Shown one piece after another: positions 9,317-56,547 of a stretch of DNA of 60,947 nucleotides. The notes below the pieces were generated by a model that made no database searches, had not been told where the DNA came from, and saw only the letters and a list, made by a program, of their open reading frames with translations. This stretch comes from Holophagaceae bacterium (GTDB lineage Bacteria > Acidobacteriota > Holophagae > Holophagales > Holophagaceae): positions 1 to 60,947 of the forward strand of contig JAFJUR010000007.1 in the NCBI GenBank assembly GCA_017859995.1. Direction: 5' to 3'. Both the position numbers and the translations under genes were made by a program. Every line of letters starts with the position of its first letter. Position 1 is the stretch's first letter.

Positions 9317-9874
9317 ATGGAAACCAAGGCGGAGGTCCGCGCCCACCTGAAGGCCCGGCGGGAGGCCCTGCCGGAAGGCGAGCGCGCAGCCTGGTCCAAG
9401 GCCGTCGCGGGCCACCTCGACCGGCTCTGCCGGGACCGGGGCTTCCACCGCATCGGCGCCTTCTGGCCTTTCGGCGCGGAGGTGGATCTTCGCCCCGCCA
9501 TCACCACCCATCCGGACTGGCTCTGGTTCTTCCCCCGGGTGGCGTCCACCCATCCACCCCGCCTGGTGTGGGGCACCGAGCCCCTGGAGCGGGGACCATG
9601 GGGCCTCATGGAACCGAGCCTCGCCCAGCACTTCCTTCCGCCCGTGCAGCTGCTGCTGGTGCCGGGCCTGGCCTTCGACGACGATGGCTACCGCATGGGC
9701 TACGGTCGCGGTTTCTACGATGCGTTGCTGGCGAAACTGCCCGACGAGGTGCTCACCGTCGGCGTGGGATTCGAGGCCCAGATGCGCCTGCCCGTCCCCG
9801 TGGAGCCCCACGACTGGCCCGTGCAGGCCCTGCTGAGCGAGCGGGGCTTTCGCATGCTGACGCCTGATGATTAG
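9317..9874 (+). CDS. 5-formyltetrahydrofolate cyclo-ligase
   Basis: Encodes 185 residues, normal for the family (also called MTHFS, ygfA/fau). It uses ATP to convert 5-formyl-THF to 5,10-methenyl-THF in folate recycling. The N-terminal KAEVRAHLKARREAL, the central IGAFWPFGAEVD and the nucleotide-binding signature GLAFDDDGYRMGYGRGFYD at about 117-135 are diagnostic. GAGGTGAAGAG precedes ATG 9317. The stop overlaps the end of the convergent kinase-like gene by 4 bp. The product supplies the pool that the formiminotransferase-cyclodeaminase encoded at 36.3 kb also feeds. Confidence 0.93.
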   Translation: METKAEVRAHLKARREALPEGERAAWSKAVAGHLDRLCRDRGFHRIGAFWPFGAEVDLRPAITTHPDWLWFFPRVASTHPPRLVWGTEPLERGPWGLMEPSLAQHFLPPVQLLLVPGLAFDDDGYRMGYGRGFYDALLAKLPDEVLTVGVGFEAQMRLPVPVEPHDWPVQALLSERGFRMLTPDD

Positions 9875-11148
9875 CCGAGTTTGAGGATGCTGGAACCGTC
9901 CGCGTAGTCCTCGGTGGGGGTCTCCCGCATTTTCTGCAGCACCTGCACCAGGGCTCGGATGCGGTCCACCATCTCGCCGATCTTGGCGAGCTTGACCTCT
10001 TCGGGGTATTTCCGCTGCAGCATCTCCACCTGCATGGAGATGATGGCCAGGGGATTGTTGATCTCGTGTTTCAGCGTGCCCGCCATCTGCCGGAAGGACT
10101 CCAGGCGCTCGGCGGCCAGGGCGCGCTGCTGCAGCTCCGTGTGGCCCCGCAACACCTGCAGGCGGTGGTGCAGCGCCTCCCAGCGGAAGCCCTCGGCCAG
10201 CCAGTCGGTGGCGCCCGCTTGGATGAGGCGCGGGGTGTCATCCTCCGTGCAGCGCACCACCAGGATGGGCGTGGTGGCGAAGGAAGGATGATGGCGATAG
10301 GCCCGGATGCAGCCTTCCAGATCGTGGGTGCCCTGGGCATCGATGACGAGGAACCGGAACTTGGGGAGGGGCGGCGGCGGCGGCTCGTGCTCCAGGGGGT
10401 GCAGCCAGAGGTTGCCGGCCTCCGCCACGGTCTGGAAGAGTCCCAGCAGGTTCAGCTCTTCGCTCACCAGGCCCAGCAGGGGCCGGGTGGGCTCCTCGGG
10501 CATGGCGTCGGGGCTTTCCGGAAGGAAGAGGTCCAGGGACTGGTCGGCCCATGCCCACCGAACGCCCGAATCCTGCAGCACACCCTGGGTCCAGGGGTCC
10601 GGCACGGGCCCATGAAGGCCAGCGGGCAGACCCAAGCGGAGGATTCGATACCCCCGTTCCTGATCCCAGCGAGCGGTCACCACGGTGCCAGGCGCGAGCT
10701 GCATGAACATGGGTTCGACGAGGCCCGCGAGGGCGGCCAGGAGGGGCCCGCCGGTCATCCATACGGAGGCAGTGGGTGCCTCGGTGGTGGTGAGCTGGGC
10801 CTTCCGCAGCCCCAGCAGGGATTCCCAGCGGTGGACCAGCTCCTCTTGCAGCGCGGCGAGGGCCAGGGGATGCCCGGCCAGGGGCGCATCCTCCAGGGCG
10901 CCGTCCCGGTGGCCTTGATCCATGAGGGTGCTCACGAGGTCGAGCTGGGAGCGGATGGCCTCGCCCATCGTCGCCGGCAGCTCCTCCGCCCAGCTCTGCA
11001 CGCGGCGCAGGGGACCGGCCATGGCGGCGAGCAGCTGCCCGTGGCGTTCAGCCTCCCGCTGGCGCTCGTTGCGCAGGCGCAGGACCTCGCCCTGCTGCTC
11101 CGCCTGCCCCAGGGCCCGGCGGTTCATCATGGCCTGCCGCAGGGCCAT
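9871..11148 (-). CDS. Histidine-kinase-like C-terminal part of a split sensor: pseudo-receiver plus DHp helix, no ATPase at the end
   Basis: Encodes 425 residues if started at ATG 11148 (GGTGGAG lies just upstream). Residues 1-45 are a coiled coil. Residues 50-230 look like a degenerate kinase core. Residues about 240-345 resemble a receiver fold (FRFLVIDAQG, PILVVRCTEDD, LIQAGATDWLAEGF) in which the usual acidic pocket and Asp are not clear. Residues 350-425 hold a strong phospho-acceptor motif, LKHEINNPLAI (His361), but the chain ends about 60 residues later without an ATP-binding domain. The frame overlaps the FHA-GAF gene out of phase, and the junction cuts a GAF domain. The two are probably one broken gene, or an overlapping coupled pair. 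Any signalling role is inferred. Confidence 0.6.
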   Translation of the reverse strand: MALRQAMMNRRALGQAEQQGEVLRLRNERQREAERHGQLLAAMAGPLRRVQSWAEELPATMGEAIRSQLDLVSTLMDQGHRDGALEDAPLAGHPLALAALQEELVHRWESLLGLRKAQLTTTEAPTASVWMTGGPLLAALAGLVEPMFMQLAPGTVVTARWDQERGYRILRLGLPAGLHGPVPDPWTQGVLQDSGVRWAWADQSLDLFLPESPDAMPEEPTRPLLGLVSEELNLLGLFQTVAEAGNLWLHPLEHEPPPPPLPKFRFLVIDAQGTHDLEGCIRAYRHHPSFATTPILVVRCTEDDTPRLIQAGATDWLAEGFRWEALHHRLQVLRGHTELQQRALAAERLESFRQMAGTLKHEINNPLAIISMQVEMLQRKYPEEVKLAKIGEMVDRIRALVQVLQKMRETPTEDYADGSSILKLG

Positions 11149-11833
11149 GCAGCTCCACCAGGCTCATGCCCCCGAAGCGGGGATCCGCCAGGGGCCGGTT
11201 GGACAGCACCGCGGTGCGCTCGCTCGAGACATAGTCGAGCACCGATCGCGAAAGCCCGATGCCCTCCTGCACATCGCCCACCCGGTGCGCGGTGCGCCAG
11301 CCCATCTCCCCCTGGCGCATGGCCAGGAAGCCCCGGTCGCCGCCCAGCAGGTGGAGGGATTCCTCCAGCAGGCCCTTCACCATGGCGTCCGCGTCGGCCT
11401 GCCGGAGCAGCTTCTCGGTGGATCGCTGGAGCAGCTCGATGCCGCGCACCAGCACCAGGGCCTGGGCCGGTTCGGGACGGACCTCCTGGAACAGGTCCCC
11501 CACCCGCTCGGCGAAGGTGGTGCCGTCCAGGCCCGGGAACCCTTCCGTGAAGGTCAGCCGCCAGTCGCCCAGCTGCAGCTGGTCGCCGTCCTCCAGGGCC
11601 CGCCCCTGGGGCTGGTCGAGGGGCTGGCCATTCACCAGCGTGCCATTGGCGGAATCCAGATCCCGGATCCACCAGATGCCTCCGACCCGGTCGATGGACG
11701 CGTGGATGCGCGAGACCGAGGCCAGCCCGGGCTGGGCCACGGCGCAGGCGACCGGATCACGGCCCACCTGGCACGCCCCGTGGATGGCGTGCCGCATCAG
11801 CTGGGTCCCCTCCGTCCAGGACAGGTAAGGCAT
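11048..11833 (-). CDS. FHA-GAF domain protein, truncated by a frame break
   Basis: Starts at ATG 11833 behind GGTGGAGG. Residues 1-85 are a forkhead-associated domain with the phosphothreonine-binding pattern GRD, SRIHASI and DLDSANGTLVNGQPL. Residues about 95-228 begin a GAF domain (ADAMVKGLLEESLHLLGGDRGFL, AVLSNRPLADPRFGG). Recognisable sequence ends at SLVELH, about position 11150. After that the frame runs 100 bp through Pro/Gly/Ala-rich out-of-frame sequence to a stop at 11048, while kinase-like sequence resumes in another frame from 11148. The second half of the GAF fold appears in neither frame. FHA-GAF architecture is common in phospho-signalling sensors. The present product is probably non-native beyond residue 228. 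Confidence 0.6.
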   Translation of the reverse strand: MPYLSWTEGTQLMRHAIHGACQVGRDPVACAVAQPGLASVSRIHASIDRVGGIWWIRDLDSANGTLVNGQPLDQPQGRALEDGDQLQLGDWRLTFTEGFPGLDGTTFAERVGDLFQEVRPEPAQALVLVRGIELLQRSTEKLLRQADADAMVKGLLEESLHLLGGDRGFLAMRQGEMGWRTAHRVGDVQEGIGLSRSVLDYVSSERTAVLSNRPLADPRFGGMSLVELHGPAAGHDEPPGPGAGGAAGRGPAPAQRAPAGG

Positions 11834-11878
11834 CGAACCTCCACCCCACCCTTTCGGTGCCCGGCGGCGGATCCTGAA

Positions 11879-44901: not shown

Positions 44902-44928
44902 AAAAACCCCGGAGCGGGCTCCGGGGTT
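44902..44928 (-). terminator. Intrinsic terminator after the small Cys-rich gene
   Basis: On the minus strand AACCCCGGAG (44928-44919), loop CCCG and CTCCGGGGTT (44914-44905) form a 10-bp perfect stem running into TTTTT (44906-44902). It ends the transcript of the small exported Cys-rich protein before the mscS start at 44868. Confidence 0.85.
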
Positions 44929-44964
44929 CTCGGGTGTTCGTCCGGGGCAGGCCCGGGAACCAGT

Positions 44965-45150
44965 TCAGCTCTTCTTGGGGGCTTCCTGCTTCTTGCCGCA
45001 GTCCTTGCAATCCTTGCAGGAGGCAGCCTTGTTCTTCTCGCAGCAGGCCATGCCACAGGACGACTTCTTGGGCTCGGCCTTCTTCTCCTCGGCGGCGAAG
45101 GCCACCAGGGCGAAGGAACTCACGAGGGCGAGCGCCAGGAACTTCTTCAT
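44965..45150 (-). CDS. Small exported cysteine- and lysine-rich protein (possible metal binder)
   Basis: Encodes 61 residues from ATG 45150, preceded by GGAGG. Residues 1-19 are a clear signal peptide (KKFLALALVSSFALVAFAA). The mature part is about 42 residues, with six cysteines (32, 36, 37, 45, 48, 51) arranged CGMACC and CKDCKDC among many lysines. The pattern resembles metallothionein-like or zinc-ribbon-like metal-binding peptides, but I do not recognise a family. It stands alone as a short transcript with its own terminator. A periplasmic metal-scavenging or buffering role is plausible; disulfide-linked structure is an alternative. Confidence 0.8.
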   Translation of the reverse strand: MKKFLALALVSSFALVAFAAEEKKAEPKKSSCGMACCEKNKAASCKDCKDCGKKQEAPKKS

Positions 45151-45221
45151 GGAATCCTCCGGACAGGTGGGACACGATCCCACGACAAGCACCTTACACG
45201 GGTGATGGCTTTCCAGACACC

Positions 45222-45239
45222 AAAAAGGAGCTCAGCTCC
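45222..45239 (-). terminator. Terminator hairpin enclosing the proline dehydrogenase stop codon
   Basis: On the minus strand GGAGC (45239-45235), loop TGA, and GCTCC (45231-45227) are followed by TTTTT (45226-45222). The loop is the stop codon of the proline dehydrogenase gene itself, so translation termination and the hairpin overlap. The stem is only 5 bp, but the T run is good. Confidence 0.6.
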
Positions 45240-46128
45240 CGAACATGTTCTTCATGACCATCACGGCCATGGCCGGGTTGGCCGCCAGGCGCCGCTTCAG
45301 GTAGTGCACCGCGTACTTCCAGTCCTCGGCGAAGGGGACGTAGAGGCGCACGATCTGGCCCCGCTTGACGATCTCCTTCTGCATCTCCGTGCGGGGCACA
45401 CCCAGCAGCATCTGGAACTCATAGGCGTCCTTGGGGACCCCGCGCTTGTCCAGGTATTCCATGCAGCGATGGATGAGCGACTCTTCGTGGGTGGCGATCT
45501 CCGGGTAGTGGCCATGGTCGAGCAGCAGTTGGACGTGCTCGAAGAGCTTGGCCTTCATGTCGGCCTTGTCCTGGAGCGCCACATCCGCCGGCTCGCGGTA
45601 GATGCCAATGCAGATGCGGACCTTGCAGGGTTTCGCGTGCAGGGCCTTGATGTCTTCCGTGGTGCGGAACAGACGGCTCTGGAGCACGATGCCGAAGTTG
45701 TCGAACTCGTTGCGGATGGCCTTGAACATCCGGAGGGTGACGTCCGTGAAGTGGCGGTCCTCCATGTCCAGGGTGATGTGCATGCCGTGCTGGGCCGCGG
45801 CGGCGACGATGCGGCGCAGGTTCTCCTGGCAGTAGGCCTCGCTTTCGTTGATGCCGAGCGAGGTGGGCTTGAGGCTGATGCTGGCGAAGGGGCGGTCCTT
45901 CAGGGCCTCGACCATGCGCAGGTAGATCTGGACCGTGGCCTCCACGTCCTTGCGGCTGAAGACCTCCTCGGCCAGCAGGTCCACCGTGGAGTAGATCCCC
46001 AGCTTCGAGTGGAGGTCATCCGCCTTGGCCACACCGGCGCCAATGCCCTTCCCCGCGATGTAGGGGGAGGCGAAGGTCCGGACCAGGGGGCCCGGCATCA
46101 AGTCGATGATGGTGCGTTTCAGGTCCAC
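45232..46128 (-). CDS. Proline dehydrogenase (monofunctional, FAD)
   Basis: Encodes 298 residues, the size of stand-alone bacterial PRODH. The TIM-barrel motifs are present: ASISLKPTSLGINESEAYCQENL, HGMHITLDMEDRHFTDVTL, GIVLQSRLFRTTEDI, IATHEESLIHRCMEYL, EFQMLLGVPR, and the closing VRLYVPFAEDWKYAVHYLKRRL whose Arg-Arg pair binds the proline carboxylate. It oxidises L-proline to pyrroline-5-carboxylate using FAD and feeds electrons to quinone. The next enzyme, P5C dehydrogenase, is not obvious nearby: the aldehyde-dehydrogenase homologue at 48.2 kb lacks catalytic residues. Proline would be used as carbon and nitrogen source. Confidence 0.9.
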   Translation of the reverse strand: MDLKRTIIDLMPGPLVRTFASPYIAGKGIGAGVAKADDLHSKLGIYSTVDLLAEEVFSRKDVEATVQIYLRMVEALKDRPFASISLKPTSLGINESEAYCQENLRRIVAAAAQHGMHITLDMEDRHFTDVTLRMFKAIRNEFDNFGIVLQSRLFRTTEDIKALHAKPCKVRICIGIYREPADVALQDKADMKAKLFEHVQLLLDHGHYPEIATHEESLIHRCMEYLDKRGVPKDAYEFQMLLGVPRTEMQKEIVKRGQIVRLYVPFAEDWKYAVHYLKRRLAANPAMAVMVMKNMFGS

Positions 46129-46256
46129 GACATTCCTCCCGTCACTGCTGCGTTTCCCGACCCATCCGTAGGGATTGGGGGGCCTTTCAAATATAGCCCC
46201 GCTCCCCCCTCTTGACGCGATGCAGTTGGGCAGTTGTGACGCGAGGACAGACCACG

Positions 46257-46287
46257 AAAAAGCCCGCAGACGTTGGGTCTGCGGGCT
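46257..46287 (-). terminator. Strong intrinsic terminator after trpS/tRNA remnant
   Basis: On the minus strand AGCCCGCAGAC (46287-46277), a 5-base loop and GTCTGCGGGCT (46271-46261) form a perfect 11-bp stem followed by a T tract (46260-46257). It lies directly behind the CCA end of the tRNA-Lys fragment and is the type of terminator normally found after a tRNA gene. Confidence 0.88.
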
Positions 46288-46292
46288 TCGGG

Positions 46293-46341
46293 TGGTGGTC
46301 CCTCCCGGACTCGAACCGGGGACCCTCTGATTAAGAGTCAG
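46293..46341 (-). pseudogene. 3' half of a tRNA-Lys(CTT) gene, 5' half missing
   Basis: Reading the minus strand from 46341: anticodon stem CTGA, loop CTCTTAA (anticodon CTT, lysine), TCAG, a short variable loop, the T arm CCCGG-TTCGAGT-CCGGG, then acceptor strand AGGGACC, discriminator A and an encoded CCA at 46295-46293. The matching 5' acceptor strand (GGTCCCT) and a D arm should lie just upstream. Instead the trpS coding sequence is there, and its last codons and stop (TAA) are formed by the anticodon-arm bases. A terminator follows. It cannot make a functional tRNA as read. Confidence 0.85.
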
Positions 46342-47296
46342 CCATGGTTTCGGCCGCCACGGCCCGGGCCCGGTCGCTGCCGGTGCGGAGCACCTCCTGG
46401 ATCAGCTCGGGCTGGGCGAGGTTGGCTTCGATGCGCTCCCGCACGGGTTCGATGCGGCGGGTCATGGCCTCGGCCACGCGCTTCTTGCAGTCGAAGCAGC
46501 CGATGCCCGCCCGGCGGCACTCGGTGTTCACCAGATGGATGGTGTCGGCGTCGCTGAAGAGCTTGTGGAACTCGAACACGGGGCAGATGTCGGGGTTGCC
46601 GGGGTCGGTCTTGCGGACCCGGGCTGGGTCGGAGGCCATCTGCCGGGTGCACTTCTCGAGGATGACGGCGTTGCTGTCCCTCAGGTAGATGCAGTTTCCG
46701 TAGCTCTTCGACATCTTCCGGCCATCGAGGCCGGGCACCTTGGGCGTCTTCGTCAGCACGGCCTCGGGCTCGGGGAACACCTCCCGCTGGTAGAGGAAGT
46801 TGAAGCGCCGCACCACCTCTCGGGCCAGCTCCAGGTGGAAGAGCTGATCCTCGCCCACGGGCACCTTGTGGGCCTTGTAGACGATGATGTCGGCCGTCTG
46901 GAGCAGCGGGTAGCCGAGGAAGCCGTAGCTGCCGAGGTCGGCCACGGCGTTCTGCAGCTTCTCCTTGTACGTGGGCACCCGTTCCAGCCAGGAGAGCGGC
47001 GTGACCATGGAGAGCAGCAGGTGCAGCTCGGCGTGCTCCTTCACGAGGCTCTGCACGAAGATCGTGGCCTGGTTGGGGTCGAGCCCCGCGGCCAGGTAGG
47101 TCGCCGTGAGCTCCAGCGTGGCGGGCCAGATCTCCTCGACGGACTCGTACTTCGAGGTCAGCGCGTGCCAGTCCGCGATCATGTAGAAGGTCTCGCCCTG
47201 GCCCTGCAGGCGGGTGAAGTTGTCCAGCGCCCCGACCAGGTGGCCGATGTGCTGGGAGCCCGAGGGCTGGATGCCGGAGAGGACGCGGGACTGCAT
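46331..47296 (-). CDS. trpS: Tryptophanyl-tRNA synthetase, C-terminus altered
   Basis: Encodes 321 residues. The class I signatures are present: SGIQPSGSQHIGHLVGAL (HIGH-like) and GRKMSKSYGN (KMSKS). It charges tRNA-Trp. Four cysteines in the C-terminal half (CTRQM, CRRAGIGCFDCKK) resemble the Fe-S or zinc-binding cysteine set of some TrpRS. The last residues read AAETMADS, whereas family members usually continue for about ten residues with a VRxAMGL-like helix. The final codons here come from tRNA-Lys sequence. The enzyme core is intact, so function is probably retained. The start lies 3 bp after the M50 gene stop. Confidence 0.93.
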   Translation of the reverse strand: MQSRVLSGIQPSGSQHIGHLVGALDNFTRLQGQGETFYMIADWHALTSKYESVEEIWPATLELTATYLAAGLDPNQATIFVQSLVKEHAELHLLLSMVTPLSWLERVPTYKEKLQNAVADLGSYGFLGYPLLQTADIIVYKAHKVPVGEDQLFHLELAREVVRRFNFLYQREVFPEPEAVLTKTPKVPGLDGRKMSKSYGNCIYLRDSNAVILEKCTRQMASDPARVRKTDPGNPDICPVFEFHKLFSDADTIHLVNTECRRAGIGCFDCKKRVAEAMTRRIEPVRERIEANLAQPELIQEVLRTGSDRARAVAAETMADS

Positions 47297-55818: not shown

Positions 55819-56547
55819 CCGGGCCCTCCAGCTCGCGGTGGCGGAGGGTCAGGTACGTCACATCGCGCTTCAGCCGGTGCGCCAGGATCTCGACCAGGGC
55901 CACGGAGCGGTGCTGGCCGCCGGTGCAGCCGATGGCCAGCGTGTGGTAGGCCCGGCCCTCCTGCTGCACGAGGGGCAGTGACCACCGCAGCCAGGATTCG
56001 GCCCGCTCCAGGAATTCCCCGGAATGCCCCGCTTGTAGCCGAAGCTGAGGAGGCGCACCGCCGTGTGGCGGGAGGGCACCTGAGGCACCAGGGCGGCGAT
56101 CCGCAGGCGCAGTTCCGAGAGGCTGAGCTGGCTGGTGTCCAGGATCGTGGTGGCCAGGGCGCGGATGGGGGCCAGGAGCTCGCGCTCCCGCCGGATGCCC
56201 TCGCCGGCGGTGCCCAGCAGGGCCAGGTGATGGGGTCGGCGCGTTTCGGAGTAGCGCCGCAGCAGCACGTCATCCCCGGCCTCCGCGAAGACCACCTGCA
56301 CGGAGACGTTTCGCGCCCGGAGGCGGTCCAGCAGCGGGGCGAACTCCTCGGTGAAGTCGGCCTGGCGGCTGTCCATGCCCACCACCAGGCGTTCGCGGGT
56401 GGGCTGCAGCTTGGTCTCCAGCTCCAGCAGGGGTTCCAGCAGCCGCGGCGGAACGTTGTCGAGGGCCGTGCAGCCGCTGTCCTCCAGCGCGCCCAGCACC
56501 GAGTGGCGCCCGGCGCCGGAGAGTCCCGTGACGACGATGAGTTCCAT
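55805..56547 (-). pseudogene. rapZ: rapZ (RNase adapter / nucleotide-binding) broken by an internal out-of-frame deletion
   Basis: From ATG 56547 the frame encodes a RapZ N-terminus: VVTGLSGAGRHSVLGALEDS, TALDNVPP, VGMDSRQADF. It continues to VRLLSFGYKRGIP at about 56020, then turns into Pro/Ser/Arg-rich sequence and stops at 55870. In another frame from 56017 the family C-terminus resumes (GEFLERAESWLR, AYHTLAIGCTGGQHRSVALVE) and ends at a TGA at 55805-55807. The conserved block between them (the DADLVFDVRFLPNP region, about 40 residues) is absent, so this looks like a deletion that also shifts the frame. The Walker A Lys is Arg (GAGR). RapZ controls glmS sRNA turnover in E. coli; here function is doubtful. 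Confidence 0.75.

Follow-up and report, generated by a model that had tools for sequence, protein, structure and literature searches.

The direct passage of trpS into the 3′ half of a tRNA-Lys(CTT) gene, present in one draft genome of the Holophagaceae, is very probably a local assembly error, a judgement drawn from sequence comparison and from the company that the junction keeps; it is most likely not a real biological feature. The window analysed, 60,947 nucleotides long and the basis of all coordinates below, is one entire contig (C113) of draft genome G000, whose genus is taken as Geothrix and whose assembly, probably made from a community, consists of 258 contigs and is 88.7% complete. 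An assembly error is favoured because the fusion is private to this genome, two similar losses are found in the same contig and carB is broken elsewhere in the assembly. The preliminary description of the locus had itself named an assembly deletion as the finding that would overturn its biological interpretation, and this is now the best-supported reading.

On the minus strand, trpS enters the tRNA half without any spacer, and the locus is composed of the following features:

46331-47296, minus strand: trpS as assembled, 321 residues, ending in ETMADS and a stop codon (Pfam tRNA-synt_1b, E = 7.7e-60).
46337-46345, minus strand: the junction, where the trpS and tRNA alignments overlap at 46337-46341 and the 126-162 nt found in relatives are missing.
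46293-46341, minus strand: 3′ half of tRNA-Lys(CTT), made up of the anticodon arm from its second base, the variable loop, the T arm, the acceptor 3′ strand and CCA.
46256-46288, minus strand: the terminator that follows the tRNA half, a hairpin with a U tract, recognised by its fold and by a hairpin at the same position in the relatives' alignment.
45232-46128, minus strand: proline dehydrogenase gene (Pfam Pro_dh), the downstream neighbour, in a flank collinear with relatives that have no element at the tRNA.

Read from 46341 to 46293, all 49 bases of the half are identical to the 3′ part of same-genus tRNA-Lys(CTT) genes, with relatives matching over exactly these bases at E = 3.4e-19 to 4.2e-19, so that this is a tRNA half and not a chance resemblance. 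Its presence had been recognised before, with an extent (46293-46345) that has to be trimmed, as 46342-46345 belongs to trpS. The strong terminator reported to follow it is also there: the hairpin and U tract at 46288-46256 lie within a region (46345-46238) whose fold has z = -4.8, and a simple terminator scan listed none at this site. As for the missing 5′ half, ARAGORN found no complete tRNA in the window and Rfam none at its gathering threshold, as expected of a half gene, and the alignment of relatives agrees; with its 5′ half absent, the sequence lacks the complete cloverleaf of a functional tRNA-Lys gene.

At the other side of the junction, the native tail of TrpRS, about 10 residues of the typical form VRxAMxxPxx, gives way to a Ser codon and a stop codon that belong to the tRNA, while the rest of trpS is an open and conserved frame. 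A longer tail is encoded in 23 of 23 aligned Geothrix loci (for example MADVRGAMKMPNI before the stop, against MADS in the window). The last four codons, Ala-Asp-Ser-stop, had all been assigned to the tRNA; since Ala-Asp is native in the TrpRS of 15 of the 23 relatives (as MAD), only Ser-stop is plainly tRNA-derived. Similarly, what had been called a missing C-terminal helix amounts to the loss of the last ~10 residues and not of a whole domain. When the TrpRS of a relative was matched to the PDB, each of the 26 sequences found aligned as far as its residue 326 or 327, beyond the end of the window protein.

The comparison with relatives that the preliminary description had called for was made by aligning the region downstream of trpS from 23 relatives of the same genus, and it recovered the arrangement to be looked for, an intact trpS in every one of them and, in 21, a full tRNA-Lys(CTT). 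The two positions that meet at the junction are 126-162 nt apart in these relatives (median 127, n = 23). The tRNA count comes from ARAGORN, which was given 28 loci in all and is scored here on the aligned ones; the other two aligned loci (L004 and L020) break off within the tRNA gene, at a contig end. When one mismatch is allowed, the fused junction is found in one of 47 genus genomes, G000 itself, and the relatives with the same junction that would have spoken for an old arrangement did not turn up. The anticodon-arm pattern of the tRNA occurs in 42 of the 47; the five genomes without it also have no complete trpS match in their assemblies and are therefore not read as losses. We found no account of the trpS-tRNA-Lys locus in the literature. 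That trpS and a half tRNA overlap as an old and stable arrangement, or that the tRNA is split with its 5′ half encoded elsewhere, agrees with the sequence as assembled and is extremely improbable: the old fusion was rejected on the presence of the junction in one of 47 genomes, and a split or permuted tRNA on a search of the G000 assembly for the missing segment, including the tRNA 5′ half, which is nowhere else in it, the stronger matches beyond the two flanks being other tRNA genes.

The assembly of G000 contains 37 tRNA genes, none of them for Lys, Asn, Trp or Ile, so the other tRNA-Lys(CTT) genes that were to be looked for are absent from it, and a tRNA-Lys(TTT) pattern, present in 37 of the 47 genus genomes, was not found in it either. 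Taken at face value, the assembly would thus lack tRNA-Lys altogether. No cell can live in that state, and the gene set of G000 is therefore incomplete for assembly reasons in any case. Two tRNA-Pro(CGG) genes of G000 (L076 and L077, on contigs C66 and C205) are each no more than about 75 bases away from the end of their contig, and tRNA genes may be places where this assembly breaks.

These observations bear on the possibility, which we consider unlikely, that the living strain really lost about 126 bp, from the Ala-Asp codons of trpS up to the tRNA anticodon stem. Such a strain would have a TrpRS shorter by about 10 residues and no tRNA-Lys(CTT), and would read AAG by wobble of tRNA-Lys(TTT), a set of consequences that we regard with the same doubt. 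The deletion of the trpS tail and tRNA 5′ half had been put forward before, and its extent holds, about 126 bp being missing in comparison with every aligned relative; its biological origin is weakened by the other breaks described below. The join falls at a match of C-N-GAC between the two sequences, which would grow to five bases had the strain GCT as its Ala codon, and what remains of trpS is open and conserved, as a real deletion would allow; moreover, the frequency of the tRNA-Lys(TTT) pattern in the genus implies that loss of the CTT gene could be survivable, and E. coli is known to have no tRNA-Lys other than that with UUU. However, GCT stands at the Ala codon in none of the 23 relatives, which makes the five-base match a conjecture, the deletion is shown by none of them, the TTT pattern on which survival would depend was not found in the G000 assembly, and the contig has two more frame-breaking losses, with a broken carB in another. 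We thus find it improbable that a natural Geothrix strain has lost both the conserved C-terminal end of TrpRS and tRNA-Lys(CTT) in one step at the border of the anticodon stem; as this is a recurrent integration core, an integrative element may have promoted such a loss.

Elements of this kind do occupy the same tRNA in two other genomes of the genus:

L165 (G004:C35:29300-39300) and L166 (G023:C43:2500-12800): about 8-kb elements in the tRNA-Lys(CTT) behind trpS, with the integrase at the far end, adjoining the duplicated half.

The complete tRNA of G004 and that of G023 are followed, at a distance of about 7.8 and 8.0 kb, respectively, by a second tRNA half, an exact copy of 49 bp that begins at the same base as the half in the window. 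Both intervals encode a tyrosine integrase with an Arm-DNA-bind_3 domain, and one protein of the G004 element matches DUF3631. An orphan tRNA-Lys(CTT) 3′ half in G048 (L169, G048:C11:4500-8500, at 1909-1957) starts with TTGACTC, at the same position, and is preceded by A+T-rich DNA; it is perhaps the far end of another element. Finally, one IMG/VR contig holds a complete tRNA-Lys(CTT).

It had been suggested that the junction is a recombination scar left by an integrated element. In this reading, the element would have used the 3′ half of tRNA-Lys as its attachment site, and its excision would have cost the 5′ half of the tRNA together with the end of trpS. The elements of G004 and G023, the G048 half and the IMG/VR contig all lend themselves to this idea, and the half in the window starts at the crossover core used by elements here, which places the junction on the border of a core that is used repeatedly for integration. 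A scar is nevertheless very improbable, and the suggestion did not survive comparison of the flanks: no element sequence remains between trpS and the half, neither element sequence nor an integrase adjoins it, and its neighbours, trpS and proline dehydrogenase, are collinear with element-free relatives. Past the half, the flank does not differ from the empty site but is the ordinary terminator followed by proline dehydrogenase. Normal excision, furthermore, is not known to include loss of the flanking trpS, and the comparable losses at 11149 and 56018 affect protein genes and not tRNA sites. In its account of integrative elements and satellites, PMC10111431 describes attachment sites that replace the 3′ part of the target tRNA, the same piece as the half in the window, and such elements occur at tRNA-Lys(CTT) in the Geothrix relatives; the window differs from that account in having no element remains, an empty-site flank and a lost end of the neighbouring trpS. 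The damage to tRNA fragments in that account starts in the acceptor stem, whereas that of the window starts in the anticodon stem.

Comparison of the whole contig with G046, G009, G016 and G013 revealed the two further losses as equally abrupt joins:

11147-11149, minus strand: second join, in an FHA-GAF-HisKA gene (about 9874-11851), with 140 bp missing in alignment with three of three covering relatives.
56018-56027, minus strand: third join, in rapZ (about 55823-56547), with 124 bp missing in alignment with four of four relatives.

Both losses are private to G000 and break the frame of a conserved gene, neither length being divisible by three, and the protein encoded to either side of each join is about 77-89% identical to that of relatives. 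The proteins of a relative carry FHA, GAF and HisKA domains at the first gene and RapZ domains at the second, and rapZ has no second match in the G000 assembly. Because the two sites are inside protein genes and are not tRNAs, integration does not explain them. The bases shared at the three junctions, as judged from relatives, are few (about 1-5), and no runs of N occur in the stretches of G000 examined.

In the assembly as a whole, 405,504 bases of G000 were examined, most of them without a counterpart in the stretches of relatives compared, and 61, 72 and 61 orthologues were scored against G046, G009 and G013, respectively. Three genes are split in G000 as seen from all three relatives: rapZ, the FHA-GAF gene and carB. 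In carB (G000:C78:60091; L221, G000:C78:60001-80000), an 8-bp tandem duplication, absent from the three relatives, breaks a frame that matches at 93-96% on both sides; at C110:36320, 14 bp of a conserved gene are missing in comparison with the one relative that aligned. As controls, six comparisons among G009, G013 and G046 (59, 120, 67, 69, 118 and 56 orthologues) gave 1, 4, 1, 0, 5 and 0 single splits and no split backed by two relatives. No clean private loss of at least 50 bp was found in G000 in the C78 and C110 comparisons. For G009, the C78 comparison gave one clean 250-252-bp difference that is private to it, and in the C113 comparison it is without about 312-329 bp (unequal lengths), corresponding to window 44913-45232, so that differences of such size are not confined to G000. 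The stretch absent in G009 includes, at 44965-45192 on the minus strand of the window and between genes, a gene for a small, Cys- and Lys-rich, exported-looking protein. The split at C78:29562, which two relatives had at first indicated, was dropped, as it falls in and around an intergenic stretch and its 'protein', which has no Pfam match, looks like an antisense reading frame. Splits at lower identity or seen from a single relative were left uncounted, and some of these look like wrong-frame ORFs, such as G046a_52528_54264_-, which is split in all three subjects.

If the fusion is an assembly error, the real chromosome probably resembles those of the relatives, with trpS intact and separated by a short spacer from a complete tRNA-Lys(CTT), and about 126 bp would have been lost where two assembled pieces met, in joins presumably made by an assembler or a gap closer. 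With elements of the genus inserting in tRNA-Lys(CTT) and their duplicated half sharing its start base, assembly paths could branch there; the position at the edge of the integration core could also be put to use by a biological reading. Several points count against an assembly error, among them the lack of N runs, the lack of clean private losses in C78 and C110 and the private differences of G009. A standard k-mer assembler does not itself join at matches as short as about 1-5 bases, and the three losses are unequal (140, 124, and 126 or more), so that no single fixed overlap length explains them; a uniform loss of k-mer length was considered and is not supported. Local assembly errors and faulty scaffold joins have been described for metagenome-assembled genomes together with a test for them, the diagnostic being the absence of perfect read support (Chen et al. 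2020, PMC7111523). As with the errors described there, faulty joins or gaps in a draft genome would give rise to incomplete or incorrect protein-coding genes; losses of 124-140 bp are not described in the passages of that paper that deal with such errors.

The locus carries a caution: several features of one draft contig can pass for biological scars and yet be explained more economically as assembly joins. Here, the two readings were told apart by setting the suspect junction against the remainder of the contig. A modest positive by-product is that elements of Geothrix have integrated repeatedly in the tRNA-Lys(CTT) gene behind trpS.
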